The notes under the pieces are model-generated. The model did not search any database, was not told where the DNA came from, and saw only the letters and a list, made by a program, of their open reading frames with translations. Below, piece after piece: positions 1-64,000 of a DNA stretch of 64,000 bases. The position numbers were made by a program, and so were the translations under genes. Position 1 is the first letter of the stretch. Each line of letters starts with the position of its first letter. The stretch spans positions 1,736,001 through 1,800,000 of the forward strand of contig OZ017763.1 of the NCBI GenBank assembly GCA_963969365.1, read 5' to 3'. The stretch comes from Asterochloris sp. CNOR1 (Eukaryota > Chlorophyta > Trebouxiophyceae > Trebouxiales > Trebouxiaceae).

Positions 1-16
1 TGAGAGAGAGAGAGAG
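1..16. repeat. (GA)n microsatellite
   Basis: Seven to eight GA dinucleotides at the window edge, inside an intron of the helicase gene. Its full length is unknown because the window starts here. Confidence 0.8.
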
Positions 17-29
17 CGTCTTCCTCTCC

Positions 30-98
30 TGCTGCAGCGTGATAGTTCTCCATGAAAATCACTTTTGCAGTTTACACACCGACGTGCTTTAGGTCCCA
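30..98 (+). repeat. Decayed copy of the following exon's 5' edge (helicase)
   Basis: This intronic stretch repeats the acceptor and first bases of the exon starting at 128. CTGCTGCAGCGTGAT recurs, then degenerate ATGAA and ACACCGACGTGCT blocks match the exon text at 120-178 in order. The copy has lost the DEAH coding frame through changes and gaps. Confidence 0.65.
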
Positions 99-127
99 TG
101 CTGAGGTCCGCCCATCTGCTGCTGCAG

Positions 128-5363
<5,236 letters not shown>

Positions 5364-5727
5364 CCAGAAAAAGCCCATCTGCTAGTTTTTTAATGCCCAC
5401 AATCCTGCATTGCCGAAATGCATGCCTTGCCCTGGCTCCTGTCCCCTCCTCGAAAGATCTGAGATTTTTACACGCTCAGGTGAAAAACATCAGGCAGCAG
5501 AACATGAAATGCATGCAAAGTCACGGGGGGCTGGTGGGTGTGAATGAGGAAGGAGTTGCAGGCCAAGAAAATCAGATGTTCAAAATCAGTCCTGTGTTGT
5601 GCTGGGGCTGAAGCACTGAAACAACCCTGAACGGCCTGCAAATCATAGCACATCTAGCTCATGTGCAGAACACAGCAGCGTCAGCTCAAAACTCTGAGCT
5701 TTCTGCCATAGAATGCCAAAGAAGGTG
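5364..5727. other. Convergent intergenic region / 3' UTRs
   Basis: About 360 bp between the stop of the plus-strand helicase and the stop of the minus-strand PhoD-like gene. I see no coding exon, RNA gene or clear TGTAA signal. It presumably holds both 3' UTRs. Confidence 0.6.
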
Positions 5728-8700
5728 TCAGGCCTCCCTGCAGCTGCAGCTTTCAGGGATAAGCCTAGGGCAGGCCTCACCTCTACTGGACGCTGCACTT
5801 TTGCTTAAGGGGGGAACTCGCAGATTAAGGTAGCTCACGCCAGGGTCACGTTCACTACTGCTCTCCATTCTTAAGGTGACTAGCAGGATTGGCTCTGCAA
5901 GAACATTTCTGATGAGCATCGGCAGTCGATGAACTGTGACTTCTTGTCACAAGGTACCAGCTGTCGTCACTGATACTCCACATGACCTGCACAGGCTCAA
6001 AATGATCCAGACATCTACTTCGTTCTCGTCATCTTCAAAGAGTCTGCGGCTCCCTGCTTGAGGCAGTCATAGTTGACATGTGGAGGTGCTCAGCCTCATG
6101 TGCTGTGCAGTGCTGTGTCACATCCTCACATCAACTCCCGCCCTTAGGTCACTCTCAGAAATGAACCCCTACCTTTATGTTCATGGTCATTGCTGCCGTT
6201 GTCCTCCCCCTTGAACTCGCAGGTCATCCCCAGCCAGCAGCGCTGGGCCAGCAGCTTTCCCCCCTGGGCGCCCTGCACCTTGGTCCGGAACTTAGGGTGC
6301 AGCTCAACCCTGCGGTCAGTCACGGGGTCCAACGTCCCCTTCTGGAGCGCCCTGACCAGCTGCCGCGAGGCTGGCCGATTGGCCATGCCCCCCACCACCA
6401 CCTGACGCATGAAGGCTGGGTCCCTCTGCGGGTTGCGGGCCTGCAGGCAGAAGGCAAATGTGGCCTATGGGAGCCGCTGGGCGCTTGCAGGTTTTCAGGT
6501 CTGCATGCCCCCGTCACCATGGCTGCATGTAGGCTGGGTCCTTCTGTTGCGCTGGACTGCAGATGGGATGGGGGGACGGGAGTGTCGGCCTGTTGGTCAT
6601 CTGCTCGACGCCACCTGCCAGGTCCCATTGTGGCATGTAGCCAGGGCTGCTGGCAGCGATTGAAGATGGGACTGGTGTCTGACTGGAAGTGGCATTTGGG
6701 AACTGCTTGACTGTTCGCAAAGCGCTGCGCACGATTCTGTTGCCCATGCCCCCAGAGCGAATGCTGAACCTGATGAAGCTGGGGATCTCACACTTTGCAA
6801 GCAGACGCGCAGGTTGCATGGCCCTGCAGGCTTGTGCACCCTGCAGGCAGGTGCTATTGGCAGAGGGCAGCAAGAGCTGCAGCCACGAAGCCTATTAACT
6901 CCGGCATGGAGTCTTAAGGTGTGGGCCTGCTGTCAGAGGCCTGTCACAAACAGCTCAACACGTGCCCCTCGTAGCACTGGCAGGCCTAAGGTAGCCTGAG
7001 GAATGGGGCTGCCCGGAGGCATGCATGGCATTTCTTGTGGACTGTATGTGTGGCAACACCGGGTTTGGACACCCACCAATGATGGCGTGTATATCCGGGC
7101 GTCTGCTGAGCAGTCAGTCCCGCCAGAAAGGAAGGTGACCCTGACGCCTTGAGCCCTAGCTACTTCCTGCAGTAGTTAGTTGGCGTGAGCAAAGCTCCAA
7201 ACCCCAGCAAGGCCTGAGATGCAGGGCTCCACGTTTTAGCCACCTCCTGCAGCAACCGCTTGGCATTGACAATGCTCACAAAGCAAGCAGGGCTGAAAGG
7301 CAGGCCGCCTGCCAAGGGCAGGACGCCTCTGGCAGTACTGCTACCAGGGTTCGGGCAACTCCAGGTGACTTGACAGGCATCACGAGCGTGGCACCTGCTG
7401 CTGCTGCCGCATGCATGTAAGCAGGTACCTCCTGGAAGAGCTGCATGCTCAGGGGCTCATGCAGACAGGCCCCCGACCAGTAGAGGCGCTGTCAGGTGGG
7501 AACAGGTGCTGCCAATAAGCGCATGCAGGGAAACAAGCAGGTTATGGTCCTTGGAGGTCTGCTTCTACAAGGTGGATAGGCCCCACAGCAGCACAGGCTC
7601 TGTCAGGTGTGGGAGTCTGAGGGCGCACAGGATGGTGTGGCAACACATCGCTGTGCACACACTGCCACACACACAGCTGCACACCTGCAGCTGCTGTAGG
7701 AGCCTCTGCCGCTCTGCCTGGTTGGTCCAGCAGTCTGGCGCCTCGCTCAGCAGCTGCACTCCGTGGCTGCACAGCACCCAGGCACGTTTGACGAATCCCA
7801 GGGTGTAACCTGGAAACTTGAAACTTTCATCAAGTTTGAGACAGGCAGTCTGTAAGTACGTGAGTGCGGCAAGCCCCAACTGCAGCAAGCGCTGCATTGC
7901 ATCTGAAGGCAGGCAGGAAACCACGTCAGGCACAGGGCTATCAATTTGAAGAGGAAGCAAGAGCCTCCCCTCATGGTGGAGCAAGGTGTGACAGCTCAGA
8001 CCGTTATGCAGGACCTCAGAGAGCTATGTGACTAGGAGTGGCATGGCAAGGCAGCAGGCAGGCTTTTCTCACCATCACGACGCATTTCACCTGTGCAGGA
8101 GGTGATGCTGCATAACAACAACATACAGGCAAGAGGAAGAGAAGTGATCACCTGCGTGCCAGCTTGGCGGCCAAGTCGCTCTCCAGTGGGGGCGCTCGGC
8201 GCCTTCCATTCTGAGCGCCTTTGCTGCCATTCTGCTCAGGCTCCTGCAGCAGGCGGGACAGCTCCTTGATGGCGGGCCGAGGAAGGGCTGGCTCTGCCTT
8301 TGTGCACGCTGTGCTCAGCCAACACTGCTTGTCACTTGATTGTCTGACTGAACTCGGACATCCAACTTGTCAGAGTGCAGCCAACATCAACACATGATGA
8401 GGAGCTGGCGGCGTCATTCCAACAGCCGGGGCCTCACAGCGCTTTCAAGTGAGATTGCTGAAAGTGAATGGCACCTGACCACCTGCTCCAGCTGCTGCCC
8501 TGCACTTCTGCATGCTGTGATGCTGACTCAATCAATGCCTGCGGCTGCTGCTGCTTGATACACAATGGGCACACATTCTGGGTTTGCAGTGCACCCCCCC
8601 CATGCTTGCATCCATGAACAGGGTCACCTCTTGCTGCACCGCGCTCCCCCACACATGGGGCAACACCACCTGCGCCCACTCCCTGCTGCTGCTCTGCATG

Positions 8701-11700
8701 ACCCCACGCAGTCCATATCCATGACCAGCCTCACCTCGTGCTGCACTGCGCTTCCGGACACGCCACCTGCGCCCATCCCCTGGCTGCTGCTCTGCATGAC
8801 CCCACGCAGTCCATATCCATGACCAGCCTCACCTCGTGCTGCACTGCGCTTCCGGACACGCCACCTGCGCCCATCCCCTGGCTGCTGCTCTGCATGACCC
8901 CACGCAGTCCATATCCATGACCAGCCTCACCTCATGCTGCACTGCGCTTCCAGACACGCCACCCGCGTCCATCCCCTGGCTGCTGCTCTGCATGACAGCA
9001 CGCACGTCGTACCCATGGTCAGACTCACCTCTTGCTGCACCGCACTCCGGGGGACGTGAGGGAACACCAGCGGCACCCCTGTCAGCACCAGGAGGTGTCG
9101 TGTGCGCGGATCAAGCTGCTGTTCCAACTGGTGCGCCACCTCCTCGTACACCTGTAGCATTGCATCGCGTGTCCTTACGGGGTGATGAGTCTGGTGGGAA
9201 TGAGTCTTTCGCATCCTGCTGACACTGGGGCTGCTGACTTTCTGCCCACAGCAGAACATGTGCGAGTCCGCATGAGCAGGGGCAACCGTGCTCCCCCTCA
9301 CCAGAATGTGCTCACAGCACCCACAGCACCCGGATCCATAGCATCGTCTCACCTGTGGGCAGCATCCCTCTCAAACTTGCCAAAATACTGATACTGTAGG
9401 CAGCTCTTACCGTCCCAAGCTAAAACATGTTGGCAAAATGCAAGAAAATGCAGAAGTGGCCTGGTCATTCTACCTGCGGCCTTGAGCTGCTGAGGGAAGT
9501 GTTACTAGCCCTGCGCCCCCACCCCAGACCACCCATGGGACCCAATGTCGCAGCAAGCATCACCTTTCGCGGGCAGCACCCCTGGGAACTGCGACGGGCT
9601 CTCAGATCCAGTCCCAGAACTGCAGCTGTGGCCCCCAGCTGCCGCAGAAAGCAGTGGCAGCCATTCTGGTCCCCGAAGAGGTACCCCTGCTGTGCGGCCA
9701 GCTCTGGGGTGGTGTGGTGCTGGAAGAGCAGGTAGAGCTTCTGGGCTGCCCTAAAGATGCCTGTAGCCAGGAGCGTGAATGTTGGCAGATGTGTTCTGTC
9801 TGCCTTGTGGGCAATGCAAGGCTGTGTGAGAAACGAAGCTGGGGCCAGTGACTTGAGACGGGCTGTCTCTCAGGCTGACACCACAATGGGCACCCTTGAG
9901 GGTGCCGTGCAAGGCCAAGAGAACACACCTGCAATCCTAAAAAAGGAAACACCTGTGTAAAAATTGCTTTAGGCATCTCAGTTGGCAAACTGGCACATGC
10001 TGGTCATCCTGAAGGGATCTTGTGTGCACAGCAAGCGTCTGGGAGGCTCATGAGCCTGCATGCTGGCGGCGACGCAAGAGCTGTGCTTCCTCAAAGCTTT
10101 GCGCAGCAAGCGTCACACAGGCACTGGGCAGACGCCTAAAACTGAGCCCACCTTGGAGCACTGGCAGCTTTTGCACGACGTCAGGCAGGGTGCCCCAGCC
10201 CTGAAAGATGTCTCTGTCATTCCACAGCATCACCTGCAGCAGTCAAGAGGGCAGCTGATACAGAGTCCCGCCAGAGCCTGCCCCATGCGCTTCAGATCCC
10301 CATGCGCTTCAAAGCCCATACACTTGCACCTTTCGAGGCCTCACCCAAATTCCCAAAGATTCTCCATATTGACGTCTGTCCCATATTGCCACAAGTGCTC
10401 CCCGTGATAAGTCACACACAGACTGCTAGCAACTCCCTCTCGCCCAAGCCATGCTGAGCCCTCAGCTGCCCTTCCAGCAAATCCAACCAGCTGCTGCACA
10501 CAGGGGCCCTGTGCAAGAGCTTTGAGTCAAAGCTCTATACACCTGCACCCACGCTGAGGTCTCAGCAGAAGACCCAGCCCGGCTGCTGGACACAAAGGGG
10601 CCTGCACATCAATACTCTCACATTTCCCACTGGTGGTCCATGCTGCCAGTTCTTTCGCTGACTGCCACTCACATGAGGAATGGTAGCAAGCGCTTCGTGA
10701 ACCCCCAGCTCCCTGAAGTGCTTCAGGTAGTTGCGCAGCATGTGCTGCTCCATGTCAGCGGTGAAGTAGGCATGCTGCAGCACCTGCAGGCCAAGAAGGA
10801 GCCTGATGCACTGCATGGTACTTAGCAGGTGACATTCAGGGTGGCATGTCAGGCGTACAGCAAGCCATAAGCGTAAAAGAGGCATGCTGCAGCACCTGCA
10901 GGCCAGACAGGAGCCTGATGCACTGCATGGTACCTAGCAGGTGACATTCAGGGTGGCTGCGGCATGTCAGGCGTAACGACGCCTTCAGCAGCCCCTGCAA
11001 ACCATGAGAGCAGCCTGCCAGACTGTTTGGTTGGAAGGTAGCAGTGCAGGGGCTGCCACTGACAGCAGCGTATCCCACAGCGCTGGCTGGCAGCACAGGG
11101 TACTCCAGCCAGCCCCTACATTGCATGGCTCCTAGTACAGACCAAGGCCAGCACCCACAGGCGGGCTGCACTCACTAGCATTTGCATAGCAGCCTACTGC
11201 AGGGCATGACTGTGCCAGGACTGCCACACAGCGCTGGTGTGCAACCCACCTCATCGTTGGCTGACAGCAGCCACTCCTGCAGCGCGGGGATGGCAAAGAC
11301 GCTGTCCTGCACAACCTGGTTGCCTCCAGCCAGCATCACATGAAGGGGCCGCTTCCTATGCTGCTGCTGCACATCCGCCCACAGGGGCAGGGGCTGCAGG
11401 AAGGTCAGCAGGGTTTAGGGTTTGGGGTGTAGGTGAACAGCAGCCTGGGCACAAGCAGCAGTCGCAGCAGCGCTGCAAAGGCACAGAGACAGCAGGCAGC
11501 TTGAGCGCAAGGAACAGCAGCAGCTGCGCTGCAAAGGCACAGGCACAAACGATGCAGGCAGGCAGGCAGGGCAGCTTGCATGAGAGCCAGCAGCAGTACT
11601 GCTGGAAAGGCACAGGTCGGGGAACATGCAGCCACTGAGGAGAGCCAGGCAGGCAGGGCACGTCAAGCACAAGCGGCAGCCAGCTGTACTGCTGGAAGGC

Positions 11701-13366: not shown

Positions 13367-14003
13367 GTTGGGTGTCTGTGCACTGCCTGCTGGAAGCTCT
13401 GCTGTATAAGAAGCCTTCTGCTTCAGTGAAATGGGGCAGCTGAAGAGAGCAGGGCTCTCAAGGGCAGAGCAGGGGCTTAGCCATGCCGGGACAAAGCCAA
13501 GAATGCCCGCTAAATGCCCCTGCTTCTGCTGCAAGCCTGGTCGGCACGCCCTGCCTTCTCAGTGGGTATCCCTGGCCTGCCTAGCTGTCTGTGTGTGGCA
13601 GGGAGTGCTGCACCACCCCTGCACAGGCAGTTGCATAAACTTTCAGTTGACCCACTGCAGCATACCTCTGGCATGCCCACCAATGCAGATCTGACCTGTT
13701 ACAATGGAAGGGGGGCCGACATGCCTCTCTTCTTCAAGGCACGCTGACTAAAGGGCACGCTGCCCCTTTTTAAAGAATTCCTGAAAGCCCTTTTCAACCC
13801 GCAAGCTGATTACAACACCGTCGGATCAAGGCCAGTGAATGCACTGAACGCTGGGAGGGTACAAACAGATGGACAGGAGTGCTGCAGGAACAAGCACCCG
13901 CACTCAGCACTCTGCCCCAGAGACTTCACCAAATGCAGGCAGAACAGCTGCAACACCCAACCGAGCAGCATTATTCAGATGGAATCTCAGGCGCATGCAG
14001 CTT
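13367..14003. other. Intergenic region between two minus-strand genes
   Basis: About 640 bp between the kelch gene stop and the proposed PhoD-like start. It should contain the 3' UTR of the former and the promoter of the latter. No recognisable exon or promoter motif was found. An extra 5' exon of the PhoD-like gene cannot be excluded. Confidence 0.5.
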
Positions 14004-17000
14004 TCAGATACGCAGTCCCTCGGAGTGTGCTGAAATTGCGCTGGCAAACGCACGCCTTTTTATGAACGTCTCAGGCAGGTCCAGGTAGGACCAGGCAGTT
14101 CTGGCAGGATCGTACACCTCCACACTGGCGCTGAAGACTGCCTGATTATTGGACAGCCTGAGCCCGCCGAGGGCAAAGATCTTCCCATTGCATGCCGCAG
14201 CCGCCAAGTAGCTCCTGCAGAAGTCATAGCTGCAGATGTGAAGGCTCAGACAGCAGCATGGATGGTGCCAGCACACCAATGCACCTCGTGCAGCAACAAT
14301 CTGGATGGCGTCAAGCCTCAGGCGGCCAGCAGAACGGCGTCAGGGCGCAAGCAACCCACAAGTACACTTCAAGCAAGATGGACAGCGTTTAGCCTCAGGC
14401 GGCAAGCAGAAGTGTCACGCGCAGCGGCAGCTGGCAAGCCCCCTATATGAACACGAATGGCAGCACAGGCACATCACTGCAACAGAGGTGCCCAGCGACA
14501 ACGATGCCAACCTGGTCTCTTGCATGGGAGGGAGTGGCGCCCATTTGTCTGCACGCTCATCATACTGTTCAAACTGATCCTGCAGGAGCAAGCAGGTCAC
14601 TTCAGCCTGACGAAGACACGCAGAACATCAAGCAAGGGCTTCTGCCACCAGCAGCAATAACCACAAGCAAGCAGCTGAAACAGCTGGGCAGACCCACCAG
14701 AGCACTTGAGAGGGCCCATCCCCCAGCTGCGTACAGGACGCCATTGAGAAGCACACAGGAATGAGTTCCTCGCGCTTGTGTCATCTCAGCCACCTGCGGT
14801 GAAGGTAGAAGGCATTAATGGCAGGCACAGAGGGGTCTGGTGCAAGCCCTTCAGGATGATAAATTCACCGTGACGCTCCTCTTCATGCGCGGGTCAAGGC
14901 GTTCCACGCTTCTCTGGTACTCCATGCCATCAAAGCCACCAGTGACAATGATGCCAGAGCCGAGCACGCCGCCCGCGCATGCAAAGCGCCGCGTCTGCAT
15001 CTCAGGGCCGATGACCCACTGACCAGAGGCCAAATCCAACCTCTCTGTGGAGGAGTGATAGACTGCATCGCGGCCGCCAATGGCCCAGGGAGAACCATCG
15101 TGGATGACCGCCATCAGGCTACCCCGCCCCCTGTGCATCTCTGGCATCTGCAACAAGCACAGGACATCAGGAGTCACCACCTGCTGTATCAAGCCGACAA
15201 CTGATCAGCTCCAAACAGAAGACAAGAAGAAGGTCTCACTTGCTGCCATGTGCCACCAATCGTGGCCTTCAAGCACTGCCTGGACCAGATCGTCCCCTTG
15301 CCCCCCCCCAAGAAGAAGACGTCAGAGCCCATCTTAGCAGCTGCACCATAGGCTGAGACCTCTGGCAGGCTGAACAGAGGGGTGTGAATGCCTGTGGCGG
15401 GGTCCCAGGCGTCCACGGTATCAATCCAGGGATCCGAGGGGCTAGGCACGCTGCCACCCATCATGAGGATGGACTCCTGCATAGTATTGCAAGGACATAA
15501 ATGGCCATCCTGCCCACATAGGTGTAAAAAGGACTGAAGGAGCCTCACCGATGTTTGCGGCTGGCTCGGAGCAATCGCTTTTGCAGCCCCAGAGATGGTG
15601 GCGCGCCCTTTCTCCTGGGTCGGTAACTGGCGGGGCTTGGGGCGCGGCTTGGGCATGGCCTGCTGAGGCTGGCTCGTTGCTGAGGGTGTGGTGCTCCCAC
15701 TCTGCCTGCCTCCACTGAACTGGCAACTGCCATCAGGGCTCTCAGAACGCTGACTGGACGAGTCCCAGCCCTCTTGCTTGATGCTTACTGGGGTTTCAGA
15801 CGCTCTAGCAGCCTTTGACTGGCTCTGCACCAAACATGAGGGGGCTGGCACGACGCGGGCACAATTTGGGAAAGGTGGCCCTTCTGGTGGCCAAGCCTTA
15901 CCTCAGCAACTTGGGGCCTTGGCTGCTCTTGTTCCCATGACATGACTGGCGTGACCATGCCCACAGAGGCTTGCTCCTCCCAACCCTGTAGCCAGCCAGA
16001 TGGCATTTCAAACGCTTAAGCAGCCTTTGACTGGCTCTGCACCAAACATGAGGGGGCTGGCATGACGCGGGCACAATTCAGTGAAGGAAACCCCTTTTAG
16101 TGGCCAAGCCTCACCTCAGCACCTTGGGGCCTTTGCTGTCCTTGCTCCCAAGACATGGCTGGCGTGGTTGTGCCTAAGTGACTCGCTTGCTCCTCCCAGC
16201 CCTGTAGCCAGCCAGGTGGGTTGTTGCACAAAGGCTTCCCAGTGACATGGGAGACACCGAAGAACACAGCTTAGCCTCACCTGCATTAGTGTCTGGTGGG
16301 CCTTGAGGCTGAAGGCTTTGCAAAGAGCCATGGCCTCATCATGTGTGAGCTGATAGCTGAACTTGCCGTGGGCAAAGTAAGCGCCCTCAATGAACTTGCT
16401 GAACTGCCTGCATTGGTGCACTGTGTGAGGCAGCTTGACATGGGAACTTCAGTCAGGAACATTGGCAGCTACTGATGTAAGTCTAGGTCGAGCTTCACCT
16501 CTCTGGCATGGCTGCACATCGCTCCAATACCTTGACTTTGACTTGTGCTGGGTACCTCGTCTCCTGAGTGTTGCTCACGCTTGTCCAGCCTGTGCGGCAT
16601 GGCAGCTGAGTCAGCGGCCTGGCGGGCCCAGCATGACATGATTGATTGCATGCAGTCATAGCTCACCACAAGGGTTGATGTTCATTTGGCCTGAGGTGGT
16701 CGCCACAAAAATGCCGTGCAGCATCTGCACTGCAGACAAGACGGCTGACACAGCATCACGGCGCAAGGTGCAAAACAACAGACGCTTGCCTTGGTGTTGT
16801 AATTGAACAGGAAGATGGGCATGCCGCTCGCCACATACTTGACCTATGAGCAAGGGCTGGCCACCTGGAGCAGTAACTGTAGCAGCAGGCAAGGCGAAGC
16901 AGGTGGGCAGTCTTACCCATCTCATGTTGCTAGCAGGCAGCCCAAACACCAGCCCTGCATGTCAAGCAGGGCAGCAGAGTTGGGCTATGAGCCAACAAGG

Positions 17001-48874: not shown

Positions 48875-49501
48875 CTTGCCTCAGCCCCCAGTGACTGCCT
48901 TGGATTCTTGCTGCAGTGCATGCACCCGACATAAAAAGCTTGATGCAACATGTCTGTGCTGCAGGAGCCACCTTCAGATGTTGTGGATACCTTGACAGTT
49001 CAGGCAGGCTGACATGGCGTCCTTCATCAGTCCCATCTGCCACAGTCCTGAAGAAGACTACTGTCACACTCCCATGGCCCACTGGCGATTTTAGCGCTGC
49101 AGTCTGCTCCTTATCTGCTTTGCTCCAGTGTCACAGCCTAGGCGGCGCAATGATGTGAGCAAGTGCTCACAGTCGCCGCTCCACCAATACATGGAGGCCA
49201 GGCAGCAACAGCAAATGCGTGCAAGTGCATATCTGCTGTTATTATGCAGTGCAGTGTACCCTCATCAGGTGCCTCAGCATACAAGAGGACTGCTTGTTCA
49301 GATGGTTTTTTTCCTGATTATGCCGGCCCAGCTATGTTGATCCTGCGGTGGCCTTAATCTGTCTGCTAAAACCTGGAGCAAACGTCCAGCATATGACACT
49401 CGAGTGCTGCCTGCAAGGCTTTAGAGAGGCAAGAAGGCAAGTGGAACCCTCTCCTGCAGCCTGCAGAGACTCAACTGTGGCACTTCCAGATCGAGGCGGC
49501 C
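48875..49501. other. Intergenic region between XRCC2 and the PTB-like gene
   Basis: About 630 bp in tandem orientation, holding the XRCC2 3' UTR and the PTB-like promoter and 5' UTR. No TGTAA signal close to the XRCC2 stop and no other feature was found. Confidence 0.45.
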
Positions 49502-52500: not shown

Positions 52501-55500
52501 TGCTCTCAGGTCGGCAGGGGTTCATTGCCCCTGGTGATCAAGACTGCGTGCTACATGTCAGAGTGTATGGGGCCCAGTCTTGCCCATGATTGTACAGTCA
52601 GCCTTTGCATGGAGTGCACAACATGACGACAGGCTGCACCAGGTGCTATATTTTTGTCACACTTGGGTGCACAGAGGAGACAGGTGAATGTATGTGCTTG
52701 ACTCCAGCGCTAGGCATGTGCAAGTCCATTGCCTGCGTGTTACGCCAGCATGAGCTCTCTCAACCAGTCACCCATGCCCTGCAGAGACTACAGGAATGAC
52801 ACATTGCCCTGGGCTCAGAGTGAGCAGGATGTTGCCGATGCGGTGACCCATGTCAATCTGGCACCCCCTGGCGGCCGTGACCCACTGGCTGGCAATGTCC
52901 TGCTGTGCATTGTGAGTACAAGAGCAGACACAATTTTGTTGCTGAACATGGCCCCCCCTCGATTGCTGTTGTCAATGTTGCACCCCCCTACCCTCCAATC
53001 CACCTTCCCTGCTGCAATGCCTTGCCTGCAGCCATGGCTGACAGACTTCCTCCTCTGTTTCATACAATGGCTGCAGTTTTGTGTGTGTGGCTTCTGCAAG
53101 TGTTTGCGCCCCCTATTGTGGGTATGAGTGCAGCCTGCCTCGTGCCTTCGGTATCAGTCAGTTCCTGAAGCAGTGCTGCTTCGTGACTCCCATCCAAGCA
53201 GGCAGCACCAGCATTGGGTATTGGGTCACTAATCTTGCTTTGAGGGATGCCTGCGGAGGTGAGGGCCTGGGCAAAGGCCTGTGCAGAGGCTGATGCACTA
53301 GGCCCAGCGCCGGCAACGTTAGCCACCAGAGGCACAGCCAGGCATACCTGTGGGATGCATGGTTGCATGGCCGGCAGCAGTTTCTGAGCCCTGAGGTCCC
53401 TGTGCCTTCTGCAGACTAGGATGCAGATGCTGGCAAGGCCTCTCCACTTGCATGTTCATCTTGTTGCCTCCTGTGCGCAGACTGAGGAACAGCAATGCCT
53501 GTTGCTAAGTGGGACGCCACTCTTGATGTCCTCTCTCTGTGGGCAGCATACGCACCAAGTCCAGCATGTCTCTGGTGGTGCGCAGATTGAGGAGCAGGAG
53601 TACCCAGTGTTGATTGATGCGCTGGCCACAGTCTTCTCCCCATATGGGCAGCTGGAGAAGATGGCCATCTTTGAGAAGAATGGCATGTGGCAGGTGGGCA
53701 TAAGAATGCCTCACAACCTTCAACTGCCACATTACAGATCCAGGTTAGACCCCCGCAATGAGACCTCTTTGGCAGAGGCAGCTGCTGTGCCATGATTGGA
53801 TTTCAGAGCAGCTTTTGCCATCACTCACAACGCAGTGCCCACTCACCTGGCAGGCCAGCTCCGCTGCGATGGTGAGCAAAACTTGAGTGCACACAGATTG
53901 TGCGGTGGAGGCCTGCTGCATGCCATTGCCCTTGCGGTGGATGACGCGCTCCATGGACCAGTGGCAGTGGTTGTTCGCTCAATGGAAAAGCACTCCAATC
54001 CAGTCTGGGCGGTCTATCTCTGCCATGGAGGGCTCATAAGCAGCATAGAACGCCTCCTGCCATTCACCAGCTATTGTGCAGTGCCTGTCTGACAGCAAAG
54101 TACCCAAAGCAAAGCATCAAAATCTATGCTTGCCGATGGTGGGCTGCACAGTCAACAGCAGGTCACCCATAGGCGCTCAGACCAAGTTGCTGGCTCCAGA
54201 TCTCACCTTGAAAGGCCAGGGATGACGGAAGCTGCTGCCCATGTCACCTCCAGGCGCCAGGGCGGCACCCAGATGATGGTGCTGCCTGCAAACCTCTACC
54301 CAACCCCTAGGGATGGTGACAAACTGTGCTGCCCCGTCACCTGCAGGCGCTGGTGCAGTTCCCAGATGACGTCAGCGCCTCCAATGCCAAGGCTGCGCTG
54401 GATGGGCATGCAGTGTACGATGGTGGCTACAACAAGGTGAGGCTGCATCTGTGTTGCTTTGCTGAGGTGTGTTGCTGCATGGTGGCGGCTGTCACCAGGT
54501 CAGCCTGATCTGATAAGCTCTGCTATCAAACATGACAGCCTGCTCTCTCATGATCTGCACCTCAGAACTTGGTGCCAGACCTGTGCGCTTTCAACATTCA
54601 ATCTGTCATGCAATTCTGGAAAGAGGCTGCAGCAGCCATCACAGCAGCATTGCTTGGGTGCAGTACTGCTGCCTTGCTCCCTGAGTGTGCAATGCCTGGC
54701 AACCTTGGTGTGACCCTCCATGCCTGTGTGCCTGACGTGTCTCTCGTTGCTGGTTGTGCAGCTGCGCATCGCCTACTCCACCCATCGTGACCTGAACATC
54801 CGCGCAGGGGATGGCAACAGCAGGGACTTCAGGCAGGGGCCCCAGGCAGCAGGTGCGCTCCCAGCTGTGCCTTGGCTGCCCTGGCTCTGTAGCACCACTA
54901 GACGCACCACCTGCAGAGCAAGCTGACGCCACACGAAGTGCATGCTCACCTAAGAGCAGTTGGGCCAGACTTGGTGCTTTGCACACACATCAGGTACAAT
55001 GCATATCTGCAGCACCTGTTGTGCAGCTTGCAGGCTGGCTTTTGGTAGATGATTCCCAACTGAGCTGCCTGCAGCCTGGGTTGCTATGCTTGCCCCTCAG
55101 CCCATGACAGCCTGCACTCTCATGTCCCACAGCCTGCAGCCTGGGTTGCTGTGATTGCTCCCCAGTCCAGGGTTGCCTGCGATTTACGCCTCACAGCCCG
55201 CAGAGTCTGCTGCTTCGCTGTGCAGCCCGGCGCTGCAAGTGCCCCTCAGCGTGGCTGCCTCAATCAGGCATCCCGCCCGCCAATCCACCGTAAGCAAAAG
55301 TCACGTCCTGCTTGGACTGCAGGGCTATTTGTGTGGGCAGCCAAGCAGCCCGATTGCATGTGCCCCTCTGCATGGTTGCCTCAGTCTGGCATAAACCCTT
55401 CCAGGCCTAAGTCGCGTCCTGCCGTCCACTGCAGGAGCGGCTGGGCAGCCGAGCAGCCCCACGCGCAAGCGCCCCCGGAACGAGAGTGGCGGCCAGCCAG

Positions 55501-58500
55501 ATGGGGGGCACAGGGAGTCCAGGCAGCGCTTTGAGCCTGTGGCAGAGCGACCTGCACACTCCGGCTGGCAGGCGATGGGACCAGGGGGTGTACAGGAGCA
55601 GGGAGGGGTGGCTGCCTTCCACGAGCTGCCAGGGGCGCCAGCACACCACATGCCGATGCAGCAGGGCCCCAGTGCCGAATTCAGGGCGCCTGCTACGCAG
55701 TCAGGTGAACTCACCAGGGAGTCCGGCAACCCTTTGGTGGTAGCTTTCTGGGACAGGAGAGCTGCTGAAATGCGCTCATGTTGCACGACAGGCAGCTTCA
55801 AGAGCAGCGTTGCTGGACGGGATCGCATCTGCTGCCAAGAGCATATTTCTGCTCAAGTCAGCGCGCAGCACAGTCTTCAGCACCTGCCTAACTGAGCTGG
55901 TAGCTGTGGGGAGAAGCAATGCTGTTTAGCGCCCAGGCAGACCACCCCAACCCTTGTGTGTCAGCTCTTGTCTTGTCTTTTCAGGTTTACGCAACTTGTT
56001 GCTAATGTTGCTTCGCACACAAGTCTTACAATGTAAACCTTTTTGTCCTTGTGCAGGCTGGGGACATCCTGCAGCAGGCCAGCAGCCACCGGCTGGGGTT
56101 CACCAGAATGGCTTTCAGCCCAAGCAGCGCGACACCTTTGCTGAGCACGAGGGTCCCCAGCTGCACCAGGCACAGTACGATGGCGCAGCCAGGCAGCAGC
56201 ATGGCATGCCGCAGCCGGGCGTGGCCCAGTGGCAGCCAGCTGGGCACGAGCAGGCGTTCAGAGGTCCTTTGCAGGAGCCGGCAGTGGTGGCTGCTGACAG
56301 CTGGCACCAGGGGCGGCCAGGCCCCAAACCCGGGCCCTTTGTGCAGCAGGGGTTGCCAGGCCAGAGCGGGCTGCCCCTGCCACCTCATGGTGGGCTGCCC
56401 GAGCCGCCTCAGGGCCGCTTTCAGCAGCCACCCCTTAGCCAGCACCCTGTGCAGGCAGCCCCAGCGCAGGAAGCTGGCAGGGTGGCACTTCGCGGTGGGA
56501 GTGCTGGGTGGTCGGCTGGAGGTCCCGCGTTTGACGGAGGTCAGGGGCAGGGGCAGCACGGCCAATGGGCAGCGACCTCTGCAGAAGGAGAGCCCAGCTG
56601 GACGCGCTTTGACCAGCCTGGCAGGCCCCATGCAGCTGCACCAGGGCCAGGAGCGGCCGCCCTGCAGCGCCCGTTGGCGGCTGGAGCGCCAGTGCCGAGG
56701 CTGGCGGGTGCCAGGGGGCATCTCAAGCGCTCCCGGTGGGATGAGGATGGTCCACAGCAGCAGCCGGGACCTGCACAGGCAGGCAGGGGTGCTGTTGATG
56801 GGGTCCCGCGGCAGTCCGGCTTCAGCCAAGCAGGCAGGAGGCCTGAGGGCCAGCCACAGCAGCCTGGCTTCACACCAGGAGGCAGGGGCGCTGTTGCTGG
56901 GGTCCAGCGGCTCGCCTTCATGCAGGCAGGCAGGGAGGCTGGTGCTGCGGGGCCTCATCAGCCTGGCCTCGCTCAAGCGGGCAGGGGTGCTGATGCTGGC
57001 AAACTTCAGCAGTTGAACCACGTCCAGGCGGGAGTTGGTGCTGGCAGCGGGGTCCAGGCACCAGCCTGGGATCAGGCGGGCGGCAGTCCACAGCAGGGGC
57101 TGCCCTACCCTCCACAGGCAGCCCCTGCTGCTGCCCCCCTCTGGGAGCAGGGGCCCCAGCCGCGTGGGCAGCAGTATGGGCACGGACCGGTTGACGGGAG
57201 GGGTCAGGTGCAGACAGCAGCGCCTGCTCCGGCTGGCGCATGGGGCTGGGAGCCAGCCCAGCAAGCACAGCAGCCTGCGCCAGGCTATGGCACAGCGCAG
57301 GGCCAAGGTGGGCAGGTCGGTGCCCAGCAGGGCGAGTATCAGCAGGGTCGCTCGGGCACATTCGCAGACCCTGCAGCCGCTGCGACCCACCAGGGCCAGT
57401 TGCCCCTGCCGGCACACCCTGCGGGTGTGACTGCGGCACAACCAAAATGGTTCCAGGGCCAGGATCACAGCCTTCCTGCAGCAGCAGCGCCGTCTGTTAA
57501 CGGCATAGGTTGTCAGTCTGGCCTGCCTCTGCCGCCTGCCACCAATGGGTTTAGTGGTCAGCCCCGCGCTGGGCCGGCCCCTCGCAGCGGCCGCCACACC
57601 TCACGGTGGGAGGACACCAGCAGGCAGCCAAACCACGGCAGCGTGGGTGCCCAGCCGCAGCTGGTGGCAGGGCCCTCGATGTGGGGGCCGCCAAACCCTG
57701 GCCAGGGTGCGCACCATCTGGGGCAGGGGGCGCTGGGCGCACAGCAGTGGCAACAGCAGCAGCCTGCTGCGGCCCCAGCTCAGCTGACACAGGCCTCAGG
57801 GCAGTGGCAGCAGCAGCATCAGCCTGCTGCTGCGCCCGCGCAGCAGATGCGCGACATGGCGCCTGTGGGGGCGCCTGCGGCACTGGACATCTCTGCGGCG
57901 CTGGATATTTTGGGGAAGTCGCTGCCGCTGCCACTGCCAGCTGGCGGTGGTGCTGGCGCCCGGCTTGGGTGAGCTCTCCATCTGCTCTTGACTCCAAAAG
58001 CCTTGCAATGTGAGGCCTAGGCTGCTGCAGCTGGCTCTGCTGCAGCAGTGGGTGTTGTTGCTGCTGCCATCAAGTGTTCTGACTCTTTGCTATTGGTTCC
58101 CGGCCCTACCTGGTTTGCTGGCTAAGGGTGCTGGGCGCTTATGCACGCGCTCTCACTCACTGTGAGGCAGCTGGGCAGCATGTGCAGACAGCAATCAAAC
58201 ACAGCAACAGGACCCCGCAAGTGGTGGGTTTTGGAGCAGTCCTGTTTTGCTGGTGGACTGCTGGCTTTGTTCACTTGGCCCAAGATACCAGTCTCACAAC
58301 GATGCATCTTGATCTGTTGGCTCTGAGACTTGTGACTGGTCAGGATGGCTGCCACTAGTGCAAGGAGGTGCACAGGATCACACACCATCTGCGGTATGGA
58401 CATAGTCATGCATGATATGATTGGCTGCACCAGCTGAGCTGGACCAGGGCTGGCATCGCTCTATGCCTCTGGGGCTGAGAGTAACGGAGTAATTCACATT

Positions 58501-59161
58501 GCTGTGCTTGACTAACTTTTGAGCAGTCAGCCATGCAGACTCCTGGGGGCAGCATGGGGCCTCAAGCTGGCGAGAAATCATACATAGAAAGCTGGTGGCG
58601 CTGCAGTCCAATGTTCTGTCTGCTGGTCCTGCACCAGCCATCACCATCCGGCTGCAGGAACACCACCATGCAAAATCCTGGGAGCGGCATGGGGCGTCAC
58701 GCTGGCAGCATAGAGGCCCAAGCTGGCAGCATGGGGGCTCAGGCTGGCAGCTCCTACCAGCAGCCTCCTCAGGCCCAGGGTCGTGGCAGTGGCAGCGGAA
58801 GTGGCAGCAATCGCCAGCACCACAGGATGCAAGGTGAGACGTCATACACCTCCCAGCTGTGGTGGACCGTCATGTGTACAGCCATGGTGGGCAAAGGCTG
58901 CTGGCGCATGGCTGTGCCGCTCTACTGCCTTACATGCTGTACAGCTCTGGCTGGCGCCACATGTGCAGGTGGGGGCCCATGTGGGGGGGCATGTGGGGGC
59001 CTCACATGGGTGTCCCACAAAAGCTTGGCACTCCAGCTTGTGCACCTCAGTGCATCCTGTATTGCGCTGCAGGCATGCATACAGTGGGCGGCGCTTTCAG
59101 GCACGGCCAGGAGGGTGGCCGTGGTCGGGGACGAGGCAGAGACCGGTCTAGACCATATTGA
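49502..59161 (+). CDS. PTB/hnRNP-I-like RNA-binding protein with three RRMs and a long low-complexity tail
   Basis: Exons: 49502-49528, 49713-49901, 50115-50279, 50921-51039, 52283-52411, 52785-52911, 53586-53693, 54347-54436, 54762-54852, 55435-55704, 56057-57968, 58658-58833 and 59073-59161. Every phase closes, giving 1163 residues. RRM1 (about 8-90) opens VPSKVLHVRNVQPATSEEEL and has AQAFLEM and GKKVFFQYSHRGEV. RRM2 (about 115-210) has TITLDQLHSLLSQHGDV and QALVQYR. RRM3 (about 247-330) has NVLLCI, FSPYGQLEKMAIF, ALVQFPD and LRIAYSTHRDLNI. The inter-RRM text HRDYRND and the post-RRM3 text NSRDFR resemble PTB linkers. PTB regulates splicing and mRNA fate. A basic patch TRKRPR follows the RRMs, then about 700 residues rich in Gln, Gly, Pro and Ala, and a C-terminus GRGRGRGRDRSRPY. 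The tail far exceeds ordinary PTB (about 530 residues). Confidence 0.9.
51170..52300 (+). repeat. Many decayed copies of one RRM2 exon 5' edge in its intron
   Basis: The exon start at 52277-52325 (GCAGAGTCGCAGAGGAGGCAGCCAGC) has relatives near 51825 (GCAGATGAGGCAGCCACC), 52088 (GCAGGCGACCACAGGAGGCAGTCAGC) and 52170-52200, plus weaker CAGCAGGCTGGCTGCCTCA units near 51220 and 51275. A 26-bp GGGCTGTCTxTCGTGTGTGCAGCA doublet lies at 51937-51986. Confidence 0.7.
55060..55480 (+). repeat. Copies of the 55435 exon edge and a CTGCAGCCTGGGTTGCT doublet
   Basis: 55319-55370 (CTGCAGGGCTATTTGTGTGGGCAGCCAAGCAGCCC) mirrors 55430-55460 (CTGCAGGAGCGGCTGGGCAGCCGAGCAGCCC), with shared upstream AAGTC(A/G)CGTCCTGC. 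CCTGCAGCCTGGGTTGCT occurs at 55069 and 55134. Confidence 0.8.
56770..57095 (+). repeat. 60-bp minisatellite coding a 20-residue repeat
   Basis: About five to six in-frame units inside the large PTB-like exon encode variants of QAGRGAVxGVxxxxGFxQAG: AGRGAVDGVPRQSGF, GGRGAVAGVQRLAF, AGREAGAAGPHQPGL, AGRGADAGKLQQLN and AGVGAGSGVQAPAW. Confidence 0.9.
58528..58700 (+). repeat. Decayed copy of the penultimate PTB-like exon edge
   Basis: CATGCAGACTCCTGGGGGCAGCATGGGGCCTCAAGCTGG at 58532 mirrors CATGCAAAATCCTGGGAGCGGCATGGGGCGTCACGCTGG at 58668 in the coding exon 58658-58833. Confidence 0.9.
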
Positions 59162-60340
59162 GCACACGGGCGAACTTCTGCTGATGTCCCCAGATTGCAC
59201 CCTCCCCAACACTTGCATAGCTGTTCCAGGAGTTATTTGGCAGATCCTGCATCTGCCCTCCAAATGATGTGTGTGGTGAATATGCTATGGTGCACCTGTC
59301 CTTTTGGCGCCTGTAATCTGGGTAAACCTAAAAAGCCAGATTTTCCCTGATATCAAATTGCCTGCAGAGATGCAACATGTCAGTGCCAGACAGGTCACCG
59401 CAGTGCTGCCCTGCTTGCGCATGAGAACATACCAGGTGGTGCTGAAGAACGTACTTAGGTTGCAGCCAAGAGGCCCTGTGGCCTCTTCATCTAGACTGCG
59501 CAGGCAGATGGCCACATCAGCAGCAGCAGGAGTGGAGCAGGCGACCACTCAGCCCAATGTGAAAGGATCACCGCTGCAGGTGGGATGCACTCTTTGATTG
59601 CGGCTGTCATTCTGCTGCTGTCCCTGTGGGTGACTCCCAGCTGGCCCACACAACGCAGCTGGCCAGAAGCTGTGTGGCAGGTCCTTGTTGCAGTACAACT
59701 TCTGGATCGATGGTGTGGCAGGCTGACTCATTGGCAGCCTCGCAATCATGACTTGCCTTGAGCACTGTGACAAGCTGTTGCCAGTATATCTGGCCTGAGA
59801 GCACTCCTGCAGATCTGTTTTTGCTGGCAGCAGTGCAACTTGCTGGTGCCTGATCCAGTTCAGCATTGATCATGAGCTATGCTACCCCAGGAGCCAATGC
59901 TAGGCTGGTGCCTGGTGCTCTTGGGTCTGCGACAGGCCCTTGTTGATCATGAGCTGTACCACCCACAGAGGGCTGAGAGCATGAGCATGTACGCTGTGTC
60001 TGCCTATCAGCGTAGCCCAATGTCACCAGTGATCAAGCAGCCCCCCTACTTCATTGTGCTGCTCAAGCATACTGAAAACTGCATGTTTGCGGGACTGAGG
60101 ACCAGGACACAGGGTGCATGCTCAGCTGGACTTGCCAGGCCTTGTGAGCTCACCAAACAGCTGCAGGGCAAGCAAAGCTGCAGTCGGGGGCAGAAAGTTG
60201 CAGACCCCCAGCCCTTCATGCCAGGCTTTAGTGTCACTGGGACAGGGCGTGTCCACAGTACACCTGCCCATCTGTTCAATGAGCTACAACAGGCGTCTTG
60301 ACATTGCTGTGCGAATGTCAGCTTGGCCTGGCCGCAGGGC
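59162..60340. other. Intergenic region before the oxidoreductase
   Basis: About 1.2 kb with the PTB-like 3' UTR and the oxidoreductase promoter. An open stretch at 59879-60301 (MLPQEPMLGWCLVLLG) might be a 5' exon or transit peptide but shows no supporting homology. TTGATCATGAGCT is repeated at 59865 and 59942. Confidence 0.4.
59312..59316 (+). terminator. Candidate TGTAA polyadenylation signal of the PTB-like gene
   Basis: TGTAA lies about 150 nt after the stop at 59159-59161, a usual distance for chlorophyte 3' UTRs. Confidence 0.5.
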
Positions 60341-63300
60341 ATGGAGCCGTCTGTGTGGGGCCAGGACAAGCTGCAGCCCCGCTACCCTCGGTTGGGTGCA
60401 GGCCAGGAGGTGCAGGGAGATGTGGTGGTGATAGGAGCAGGCCTGACGGGACTCAGTACAGCCTACAACCTGGCCAAAGCAGGTGGGCAGGGCAGCCAAG
60501 CACCTGCAGGGGTGACAGGCCTCTGCACATGCCAGGCACCTGCCCCAACGGCTGGGCAGGCCTGACAGGTCTCAGCATTGCACCCAGGCACTGGCAGGCA
60601 GGCATGACAGGCCTCAGCACCGGCTGCAGCACGTGGACAGAGCATCTGAAGGGCCCATATGCCTCATGACTGCAAACAGGCTGGCCAGAAGCAGGTGAGC
60701 AGAGCATCTGCGGTGCTTGTGCGCCTCAAACGCAGTGTGCAGCCTGGCCAAAAGCAGGTGGGAACAGCATCTGGAGCACAGCGGATCTCACGTGCGAGTA
60801 CATGCGGGCTACCTCTGTAGCCTGCCTTAGCAGGGGCCTCCCCAAGGGGATTCTGACCATGGATACATGGTGTTGTTGGCGACGTGTTTGGCCTGCTGGC
60901 GCTCACATCTCAGGCAGGGCAGCACCAGTATGCATCGATGCTTGGCCAAAAGAAGATATGCAGTGAGGTGTGGCTGCACCGCAGCCACACGTGGCTGCTT
61001 GTAGTCACATTGATTGTTGACATGACAGGGCACTGCCTGCACCCAAGCCAGACCGGAGGTGGCCACTCCCAATTGTGCTGCAGTGCACTGTCCTGCATGC
61101 CAAGCAGGCAGGAGCGCTGTCCATACTGGGACACGTGCGTGTAACCGCTAGGGTGTCCCCAGGGAGAATTGGGCATGCTGATGTTTTGCAGCACAATTAT
61201 GCACACCAAACCCCACAAGTATGCCTCACCCCTGCAATGTGCAGTCCAGGCAATAGCTGGGGTGTTGTCACTGTTAGGCCAGGGTGTACAGTGTATGTAG
61301 CTTGAGTCAACACGTACATGTGGGCCTGCAGGCAAGAAGGTTATTGTCCTGGAGGACAGAACTGTGGCCGCGGGCCAAAGTGGCCGCGTGGCTGGCTCCG
61401 CCCAGACTTGGGTGGATGACACCTTCACAGCCATCAAAGCCAACCACTCGTCTGGCACAGCCTCCAAGGTGAGGGCTTGAGGACTTGAGGGCCTCTCTGG
61501 TGGTTCCTGGCACTACACACTATGCACAGCCTGGAAAGCCAAGCATGGTGCACAGCCGTCAAGGTGAGAGCTTGCGGGTTTTGCTGGTGCCTCCTGGCAT
61601 CAAGTGCAGCCTTTAAGGCACAAGATGGCAAAGATGCAGCCGCTAGAGTGAGGGCTCAAGCTTTGCTGGTACTTTCTGGCCCTAGGCACAGCTGTGAATG
61701 GCAGGGGATCACTCGGGCAGTGCATTGCTGCTCGTTCCGCAGGAGGACTGAGCAGTGCCGTGCATGGCTTGCTCCAAGATGAATAGCGAAGCAAGCAACT
61801 CATGCCAGTGGTGCCTGCACCTTGCTGGCTTGGCCAGGCCTGTTGAACCCCTTGCAAACGGCCTGCTCAGGCCGTTTGCAAGCCTCTATAGTGCAAGAGT
61901 TTGGTAACCTGGTATAGCAGCAAGTGTTTGGAAATCAAGAGTCAACGGTATGACCAAAGCAGTTCACCAGGTCCGTCAAAAGTCACACATGTTGGCTGTG
62001 TCTTGTCTCGGCCATGCAAGTCTGTTTACAAGCTGTCTGGGGGAGGTGGGCCATGTAATTGAAGCTGTGGCCGAATACTATTGCAGCCGGCCTTCAGCCA
62101 GCCTGTCCACAGCACCTGCACAGCCCTGGGGCAGGGGGAACAGCATTGTCATTGTGTGGTGCTCACAACTGCACGGCCTCAAAGTATAATTGCTTCTGCT
62201 TGGCTGCATGGCCTGGCAATGCCTATCTCTGTTGCTATTTCAGCGCCTGTCTAGACAGAGGTGGCCTTGCTGACCAGGTGTCAGAGGCTCACAAGGCCGG
62301 CATCGACTGGATCAGCAGCGTTGTCAGCGATGAGGGCATCAGCTGTGACCTGGAGAAGACCACAGGGTGCGCCCTCCCTCAGCCATGCTTGTCACATTGT
62401 TCGACAATTGTATCCTGCCTGGTGGCATTTGTGAGGCTGGCTGCTGGGGGGCTGGGAGCGGCCTTCTGGCAGTGCATTCTGCTTTGCTTTGCCACAACAA
62501 CATATGGTATGTTTGGTCATGGGTGGGGTCCAGGCTGATGCCCTGCCCCGTACATTGTGTGTCTAGGATGGGGCCCTGCCCAGTGCAGCCAGTGTCCAGA
62601 CTGATACCCTGTCCTGTACCGCCGGTGTCCAGACTGATGCCTTACTCTGTAAAGTTGGCGTCCAGGGGTCTGCCTCCCCCTGTGCAGCGCGCTGCACTCA
62701 GCTGCATGCTTGGGCGTGATGCCCAGCCTGGCACCACTGCTGCGGGCAACTGCGTTGTGCTGCCTGTCCTGGTGTGGGGTCCATCCTGACTTTGCTGCCG
62801 CAGGTAGCTGCAGCCAGCAGCCTGCATGACTGCTTGGTTTACCCTGGCTGTGCTGCTGCAGACTGCTGTACCCTTACGATGAGGCCTCGCAGTATCAGGA
62901 GAAGTGGGATGAAGAGGTGCAGACATGCCAGGAGCTGGGGCTGCCTCAGATTGAACAGGTGGGGCTGCCAGCAGTATGGTGCAGCTACTGCACAATACAT
63001 CAGCTGCAACTCAAGCCTGCCTCAGGTTGAACAGGTGAAGTCGCCAGCTCCCCAACTAGAGTATGGCTGGAATGCTCTCTCAGACAGAGCAGGCATGACT
63101 TTGGGTGCACAGGAAGGCAGCGTTGTCATTTTGCTGGTCTGCACACAGCCTGAGTCTTGACTGTGGGGCTACCTGATGCTGCGCCACCTGCCACCATGTT
63201 CGGATACAAGCACGTGGCGTTTGGGGTGGCAGAGGCCTTTTTGCAGCCCCAATTGGTGCAATGGGCTGGACTTTGACAGTGCACAGCTGGTGCGGCCCTA

Positions 63301-63883
63301 CAGGGGCCTCTTCAATGTGGGTTGCCCTCCTTCTGAGTTCAAGTGCCATTGCTGGATTCACAAAGGCAGGCAGGAGCTGGGGCCCTTGGGGTGGGACAGG
63401 CTGTTTTGCAGCCTCATAATGTGTTGGGCTGGCCTTCAATAGTGCGCAGCAGCAGCCGCTTTTAATAGGCCTTCTCATGACGCCCTGTCTTTGAGCCTGA
63501 GTGGCCCGGCCTCAAGCAGCCCTTCCATGATGCCCTGTCCTCTGAGGCCAAGCACCATTGCTGGGTTGGGGGTTGCAGGTGTTGCTGCCAGGTACAAACC
63601 AGTAGGAGGCTTGCGCCTCATGTGCTCAATGCGCCGGAGTCTGCAGGTGCACAGCAGAGATCAGGCTTGCTCACATTGGTAGCCTGCTCTTTGCAGAAGT
63701 GCTCAGCTGCAAGTGGAGCTCCTGGGCAGAGCAGACCCCGGTCTTGCCGACCCTCACCCTGGCCTGCTTGCGTCCTGCAGGTGCAACTCCCAGGCACGCC
63801 AGAGGTAGGAGGCCTCCACAGAGCACTCAAGTTTTCGGGCTCCATCCACTTCAACCCCATCGCCCTCTGCCAGGGTCTGGCAG
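60341..63883 (+). CDS. FAD-dependent oxidoreductase of the DAO family, 3' partial
   Basis: N-terminal half of a flavoprotein amine/amino-acid oxidoreductase (DAO superfamily). Exons: 60341-60482, 61332-61468, 62278-62366, 62862-62958 and 63781-63883; phases agree. SVWGQDKLQPRYPRL is followed by the FAD-binding Rossmann motif VVVIGAGLTGLSTAYNLAKAG, GxGxxG intact. Then come KKVIVLEDRTVAAGQSGRVAG (family: VVVLEA..IG.G.SGRTTAH), a helix with SEAHKAGIDWI, LLYPYDEASQYQEKWDEEV and FSGSIHFNPIALCQGLA (family: FP.QAQFHPLKYL.GLA). The substrate is not evident. The substrate-binding half and any Rieske-type C-terminal domain lie beyond the window. The start is uncertain because a CCGCAG acceptor just before the ATG would allow an upstream exon. 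Confidence 0.85.
60435..60780 (+). repeat. Copies of the FAD-motif exon 3' edge in the following intron
   Basis: The exon text GCAGGCCTGACGGGACTCAG (60437) recurs as GCAGGCCTGACAGGTCTCAG (60557) and GCAGGCATGACAGGCCTCAG (60599). The donor edge CCTGGCCAAAGCAGGTGGGC (60470) recurs as GCTGGCCAGAAGCAGGTGAGC (60679) and CCTGGCCAAAAGCAGGTGGGA (60742). The glycine-loop codons survive in two copies. Confidence 0.9.
61455..61690 (+). repeat. Tandem copies of an exon donor edge (oxidoreductase)
   Basis: AGCCTCCAAGGTGAGGGCTTGAG (61459) is repeated near 61556 (AGCCGTCAAGGTGAGAGCTTG) and 61637 (AGCCGCTAGAGTGAGGGCTCAAG). Each is followed by a (G/C)T(G/T)GTxxxTxCTGGC block. Confidence 0.8.
61851..61882. 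repeat. Perfect inverted repeat, 15-bp arms, 2-nt spacer
   Basis: CTTGCAAACGGCCTG (61851-61865), spacer CT, then its exact reverse complement (61868-61882), inside an oxidoreductase intron. It would form a tight hairpin in RNA or a cruciform in DNA. No T run follows. Confidence 0.9.
62530..62665 (+). repeat. Tandem repeat of about 35-40 bp (oxidoreductase intron)
   Basis: Three to four units containing GTCCAG(A/G)(C/G)TGAT(A/G)CC(C/T)T(A/G) and a CTGTACCG-like block. No link to a coding exon is seen. Confidence 0.75.
62940..63050 (+). repeat. Copy of an exon 3' edge with intact donor (oxidoreductase)
   Basis: CTGCCTCAGATTGAACAGGTG ends the exon at 62958. CTGCCTCAGGTTGAACAGGTG recurs about 77 bp downstream, near 63019-63039, with only one change, so a second usable donor exists. 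Confidence 0.9.
63230..63560 (+). repeat. Imperfect repeats in the last intron (oxidoreductase)
   Basis: TTTTTGCAGCCCCAATTGGTGCAATGGGCTGG (63238) resembles TTTTGCAGCCTCATAATGTGTTGGGCTGG (63404). GATGCCCTGTC or GACGCCCTGTC with (T/C)CTGAGxCxxAG occurs near 63480 and 63531. These may be shadows of the next exon, but the parent is not identified. Confidence 0.6.
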
Positions 63884-64000
63884 GTGAGTCCCGGGGCACA
63901 ATCTTTGAGGAGCATATGTGCAGAGCAAAGGTGTCACTGCAAGGCATGTGCGCAGCTTGTGAGTCAAAACTTGAAAGGTGTTGCGTGCGTGCAAAGGATG

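Follow-up and report, generated by a model that had tools for sequence, protein, structure and literature searches.

Decaying copies of exon edges in introns of the green alga Asterochloris sp. CNOR1 probably record intron growth by small local tandem duplications

Why should an intron contain sequence resembling the edge of the exon beside it? The question is raised by a 64,000-nucleotide (nt) stretch of the green alga Asterochloris sp. CNOR1 (OZ017763.1, positions 1,736,001-1,800,000, on contig C18 of a 56.4-Mb genome with 21 contigs), hereafter the window. An earlier note on this DNA had described decayed tandem copies of exon boundaries, here called shadows, in introns throughout the window. 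Our analysis shows that these exon-edge copies are real, that they are locally confined and that they extend beyond the window; the suggestion that they are pervasive went too far, as most introns carry no shadow at the sensitivity used.

The window was compared with twenty 10-kilobase (kb) loci from contigs C1-C14, so that the results describe a sample and not the whole genome; loci L001-L005 and L026-L028 were excluded from every count. Repeats were counted in 26 chunks of 10 kb, namely the first 60 kb of the window (six chunks) and the twenty loci. Gene models were our own predictions, made by a gene finder self-trained on the sampled 264 kb alone. The splice signals that it learned are strong (donor CAG/GTGAG, acceptor mostly CTGCAG/G), and its introns have a predicted median length of 222 nt; GC-starting donors make up about 8% of this splice model, and acceptors are mostly TGCAG. 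The 586 introns flanked by exons on both sides were the input to the tests of exon edges.

Comparison of the window with itself, which involves no gene models, returned 55 direct repeats less than 1.5 kb apart (expect value, E, ≤ 0.01), a single more distant one and no inverted ones. The 26 chunks together held 146 direct repeats within 1.5 kb, as against 2 farther apart and 3 inverted, which is the direct and local arrangement expected of small tandem duplication; 22 matches were found across the 325 between-chunk pairs, part of them belonging to an element common to L017, L023 and L025. We then aligned 45 exon-only bases from each exon edge to the adjoining intron, a match being scored at p ≤ 0.01, with p-values that assume independent edges. 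Because the query holds exon bases only, the splice consensus is unable to contribute. Matches were obtained for 66 of 682 edges (33/335 on the donor side and 33/347 on the acceptor side), about 7 of them expected by chance, compared with 2/335 for reverse complements and 2/122 for pieces from the middle of exons. A rerun with new random controls gave similar counts (acceptor side 36/347, donor side 38/335). The match rate falls with distance: introns one exon away gave 30/1230, and those two or three introns away 25/2083. Pieces of introns also match the remainder of their own intron, in 24 of 373 cases, from which the exon edges differ with a p of only 0.08. Removal of six matches scoring below 15 and of one far from the edge left 59 shadows for the tests that follow.

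At least one edge with a shadow occurs in 16 of the 21 sampled loci, with none at p ≤ 0.01 in L017, L019, L021, L023 and L024. The window is unusually rich: 32 of its 167 tested edges match, against 34/515 in the twenty other loci (p 8e-6), a density about three times higher, and local repeats are about twice as abundant (57 in its six chunks versus 89 in the twenty others). All five of its predicted gene blocks, in which our models merge genes, have shadows, in 4/9, 2/20, 4/10, 13/33 and 6/29 tested introns (29/101 in total). The median length is 418 nt for shadow-bearing introns (n = 63), as against 262 nt for those with p > 0.05 (n = 303; 43 intermediate ones among the 409 tested were omitted), although long introns also give more room for a match.

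The copies follow simple rules of position. The 151 repeats reduce to 127 non-redundant pairs, in whose classification predicted micro-exons of at most 20 nt, some of which are wrong, were counted as intron. A single junction could be shown in 49 of the 63 exon/intron pairs, the other 14 not being classed. Copies of acceptor edges lie upstream of the exon in 33 of 34 cases and copies of donor edges downstream in 15 of 15, so that 48 of the 49 lie on the side that splicing can remove. The lag between source and copy is 51-237 base pairs (bp) in 52 of the 59 shadows, with a median of 119 for acceptor and 120 for donor shadows, and is spread evenly over the three frames (19/20/20). Repeats wholly internal to exons have a lag divisible by three in 6 of 7 cases. 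Such an even spread in shadows, together with multiples of three in exons, indicates that the same type of event also hits exons and is filtered there by frame.

Once formed, the copies seem to decay freely. The sequence flanking a shadow shows 42% identity to the genomic intron flank (11/59 with at least 13 of 20 positions matching) and 28% to the spliced neighbouring exon (0/59 at that level). It was therefore DNA that was copied, and an origin from spliced RNA is rejected. Decay is graded, with 19 of the 127 pairs at least 85% identical. Differences between exon and shadow are nearly flat over codon positions 1, 2 and 3 (156/852, 167/847 and 201/844), the slight third-position excess being of the size that drift at synonymous sites of the real exon would leave, and a frameshifting gap or in-frame stop, mostly the former, interrupts the aligned part of 35/59 shadows. 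The splice site was said to be copied along with the exon edge; this holds for some shadows, but the site is often lost, AG being retained at 12/31 acceptor shadows and GT or GC at 18/28 donor shadows. From these counts neither strong protection nor strong removal of shadow splice sites is clear.

Thirteen intervals of the window had been singled out in the earlier note. Twelve contain a direct repeat with E ≤ 1e-3 in a 10-kb search, and for the thirteenth, 4299-4356, none of 277 controls was as good. Eleven of the thirteen match edges of exons of at least 30 nt within 1 kb, at p ≤ 0.02, uncorrected and with several edges per interval (the smallest attainable p was about 0.005; for position 63019 the stretch 63000-63060 was used). 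The other two, 8700-8993 and 21314-21600, are strong repeats nonetheless (E 3e-109 and 2e-15), and were missed because the gene finder called the copies exons and thereby masked them. The features of the window are as follows.

25-88, + strand: decayed acceptor-side shadow of exon 128-347 of a DHX16/Prp2-like helicase (source 115-178, lag 90, 72% identity); the exon aligns to human DHX16.
559-719, + strand: two acceptor-side shadows of the edge of exon 720-821, period 78, the nearer one retaining TTGCAG/GCT (E 1e-31).
3079-3134, + strand: donor-side shadow of exon 2953-3072 (source 3025-3080, lag 54, donor GTACGC).
4299-4356, + strand: donor-side shadow of exon 3878-4001 including its GC donor, a gapped copy of source 3947-4008 (0/277 controls as good).
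8610-9028, - strand: array of donor-edge copies of exon 9029-9215, spaced 98-107 bp (E 3e-109).
10873-10957, - strand: acceptor-side shadow of exon 10673-10783 (source 10761-10845, lag 112, 92%, CTGCAG retained).
15789-16219, - strand: 212-bp tandem duplication with a whole exon (15902-15985 and 16115-16201), plus an edge shadow of exon 15549-15824 (E 3e-56).
21310-21568, + strand: lag-114 duplication adjoining kinase exon 21548-21700 (E 2e-15).
28348-28431, - strand: older acceptor-side shadow of exon 28205-28299 (lag 89, 69%).
28493-28545, - strand: second, farther shadow of the same edge of exon 28205-28299 (source 28256-28308, lag 237, 85%).
33295-33362, - strand: acceptor-side shadow of exon 32623-32943 (E 5e-5).
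47414-47475, + strand: acceptor-side shadow of exon 47706-47822 (source 47700-47762, lag 286).
55067-55392, + strand: intron-only duplications (lags 65 and 121) before exon 55435-55704 and a weak acceptor shadow (junction at about 55326).
58531-58571, + strand: copy of the start of exon 58658-58886, without splice site (source 58666-58706, lag 135, 85%).
60603-60773, + strand: intronic duplication (lag 62) and donor-side shadow of exon 60338-60482 (shadow junction at about 60645).
63017-63048, + strand: donor-side shadow of exon 62862-62958 (source 62941-62972, lag 76, donor GTGAAG).

In the array at 8610-9028, three similar copies retain GTGAGG and one older copy has GTGACC. Gene finders may call young shadows exons, as was apparently the case at 8670-8987, and the small predicted exons within 21310-21568 are probably copies too, exons only putatively. 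The tandem exons 15902-15985 and 16115-16201 (- strand), of 28 and 29 codons and similar in sequence, apparently represent an in-frame whole-exon duplication that would add a repeat to the protein. A long predicted exon also holds in-frame repeats of its own at 56735-57043, low in complexity and glutamine/glycine-rich, with lags of 51, 99, 147 and 198.

The first gene of the window encodes a helicase of the DHX16/Prp2 type (E 5.5e-227 against human DHX16). Its protein aligns with human DHX16 without gaps across junctions 347/720, 3072/3204 and 4001/4859, all of them sites of copies seen previously; some micro-exons in this model, which appear as insertions relative to DHX16, are probably wrong. 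In the three other gene blocks scanned, the domains found are kelch and PhoD-like phosphatase, protein kinase, RRM and FAD oxidoreductase, and a scan of the window with Rfam gave no match at gathering scores. Matches to the chlorophyll a/b-binding family, 31 in number, indicate that the organism is photosynthetic, but one of them, when searched against PDB, gave no hit at 1e-10.

How, then, did the shadows come about? Locality, direct orientation, the side of the copy, the frame statistics, neutral-looking decay and presence in most sampled loci are all directly observed. We consider it probable, at roughly 0.78, that shadows are small tandem duplications which were tolerated in introns or across one junction and have decayed since, existing introns growing in the process. 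Small direct tandem duplications would arise anywhere in genes, probably when staggered breaks or nicks are filled in and end-joined, a route described in other systems. If a copy stayed within an intron or spanned one junction, splicing would remove it provided that the outermost donor or the last acceptor were used, and it could thus survive. A copy inside an exon would alter the protein and would mostly survive only in frame. The spare exon edge would then decay free of coding constraint while the real edge is conserved, so that copies of exon edges should stay visible longer than intron-only copies, and the net outcome would be the lengthening of existing introns. What we infer in this scheme is that the outer splice sites are used, that copies become fixed because they are tolerated, and what the DNA event was.

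Some of the best preserved repeats fit such an event. Among the 30 pairs of at least 82% identity, 5 are arranged head to tail, separated by -3 to +5 bp, another six form overlapping arrays, and 14 fill at least 0.7 of the lag. Clean head-to-tail pairs are found within introns, at splice junctions and enclosing a whole exon, and 16 of the 28 intron-only pairs fill their lag to within 30 bp; tandem duplication is therefore taken as the main event. Intron-only duplications are common (28, versus 63 exon/intron pairs). When duplications were simulated as randomly placed, with those internal to exons removed and exon edges decaying one-sidedly, the ratio of junction to intron-only pairs was 1.1-1.5 at 85% identity or more. 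The observed 9:7 falls within this range, and the youngest class thus needs no preference for junctions. The earlier proposal is upheld in part: repeated local duplications, often across junctions, are present in introns of the window and of most of the loci, but a mechanism targeted at junctions is less probable.

Several observations nevertheless weigh against this explanation. Taking pairs of every age, and leaving aside 9 predicted intergenic and 7 exon-internal ones, the junction to intron-only ratio is 83:28, compared with 1.6-1.9 in the simulation (p 0.018 against a share of 0.64); random placement and one-sided decay account for the youngest class and, in part, for the remainder. The intron flank of the source is matched beside the shadow in 17 of the 56 shadows (out of 59) that entered this test, as against 26-29 of 51-53 in a matched simulation of tandem duplication (p 0.005 against a share of 0.5, p 0.03 against 0.45). 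An earlier form of the test took 57 shadows with the same 17 matches, and a looser simulation, which gave 72-74%, was superseded by the better matched one. As many as 16 of the 30 pairs of at least 82% identity fill less than half of the lag. One of them, the shadow at 28493-28545, is an anomaly that is hard for plain nested tandem duplication: its intron flank has no match (p 0.88), yet it is better preserved than the nearer copy at lag 89. Finally, frame damage is found in none of the eight best-scoring shadows, and the lag is divisible by three in 10/20 mixed pairs, in which both copies include predicted exon, so some copies of this class may be in use. The flank deficit and the junction excess would fit if selection erases duplicated splice signals, or if a minority of the copies are non-tandem or converted.

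The last of these options leads to the rival that survives best, though we still regard it as unlikely. Short pieces of exon edges might be copied preferentially into neighbouring introns, in direct orientation but not head to tail, by serial slippage or template switching, or old shadows might be refreshed by gene conversion from the exon. A local, edge-biased process that stops near splice junctions would then continually seed introns with exon-like sequence, beyond what random tandem duplication provides. The excess of junction pairs over the simulation, the missing intron flanks and the poorly filled lags all speak for it, and 28256-28308 with 28493-28545 is its best single case (85% at lag 237 versus 69% nearer by). 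However, no junction excess exists at 85% identity or more, clean tandem junction pairs do exist (for instance L018 6918-7157, spacer -2), and intron-only copies are common. Short pairs with long spacers may in many cases be the best-kept bits of older, longer duplications, and selection against duplicated splice signals would likewise erase intron flanks.

A function for the shadows as alternative or mutually exclusive exon ends, which the earlier note had envisaged, appears decidedly improbable as a general outcome. Good splice sites are kept in some shadows (the 8610-9028 array; junctions 4345, 10895 and 61563), a few show differences that fall mainly on third positions (1/1/4 at 3079-3134, 2/2/8 in L009 near 1384), the duplication at 15789-16219 is in frame and contains a whole exon, and half of the mixed-class lags are multiples of three. 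Against this stand the flat codon positions, the frame damage in 35/59, mostly gaps, and the retention of AG at no more than 12/31: the codon constraint and intact frames expected of alternative exons are not seen overall, with a few exceptions. The L009 shadow (- strand, lag 121) looks like a recently coding copy.

Still less probable is the creation of new introns, either by tandem duplication of AGGT-containing exon segments, as the earlier note had in mind, or by introner-like mobile elements. The underlying event, tandem duplication inside genes, would be of the same kind, and there is one outlier (L022 5831-5930). Yet a register test, in which the exon tail is compared with the intron tail and the intron head with the head of the next exon at a lag equal to intron length, placed 2 of 340 introns above the 99.5% level of the controls, where 1.7 were expected. 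When introns 348-719 and 28300-29401 were searched against the genome, the sole other match among the best candidates scored was the adjoining exon edge, and the 8610-9028 array matched that place only, a lower bound since again the best candidates were scored. With local matches only in these searches and few between chunks or loci, dispersed repeats were rejected as a source, as were inverted or snap-back copies, given reverse-complement matches at only 2/335. The sampled loci do contain what is probably a mobile element, judging from stretches of up to 1.5 kb, 77-91% identical and several of them mutually inverted, shared by L017 1130-4620, L023 3814-7828 and L025 2684-2936. Separately, 48 bases are identical between L023 9953-10000 and L024 1-48, where one locus ends and another, from a different contig, begins.

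An artefact of assembly or sequencing is hardly credible: the most recent array (8717-8978) is nearly identical and its copy number could be miscounted by reads, but in most cases the copy is visibly different from its source, decay is graded, and the rules of side and frame are beyond any assembler.

Since the real exon edge stays conserved, a shadow documents a single insertion into an intron, the orientation and approximate age of which can be read. With about 1 in 10 tested exon edges carrying a shadow (1 in 15 outside the window), intron growth becomes countable event by event. It also becomes possible to ask how fresh duplicated splice sites fare, whether by quick silencing, tolerance or use as an alternative exon.

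Tandem exon duplication, as in mutually exclusive exons, likewise leaves copies of exon sequence beside an exon. The copies described here are in contrast mostly partial exon edges, often damaged in frame and free of overall codon constraint. The small tandem duplications formed during break repair by CST/Pol alpha-primase and end joining are also direct, local and small (PMC8355091). By comparison with that account, our units are somewhat longer (median lag 119/120), fixed, and read through decay, and the repair route is one that we can only infer. Tandem duplication has also been proposed for intron gain, in a potato RdRp case that spans an intron-exon boundary (PMC4974935) and in Drosophila (PMC2891723). 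Duplication within genes is common to all three systems, and the potato case also crosses a junction, but in Asterochloris existing introns grow, without an excess in the AGGT register. Introner elements (PMC9860276) supply intron sequence as dispersed families, whereas each intron searched here is confined to a single place. We found no published account of a genome-wide record of exon-edge copies in introns, which is weak evidence given thin coverage of subscription journals. Set beside these systems, what our analysis adds is a dense, decaying record of duplication, present in 16 of 21 loci, in which the preserved exon edge serves as the reference.

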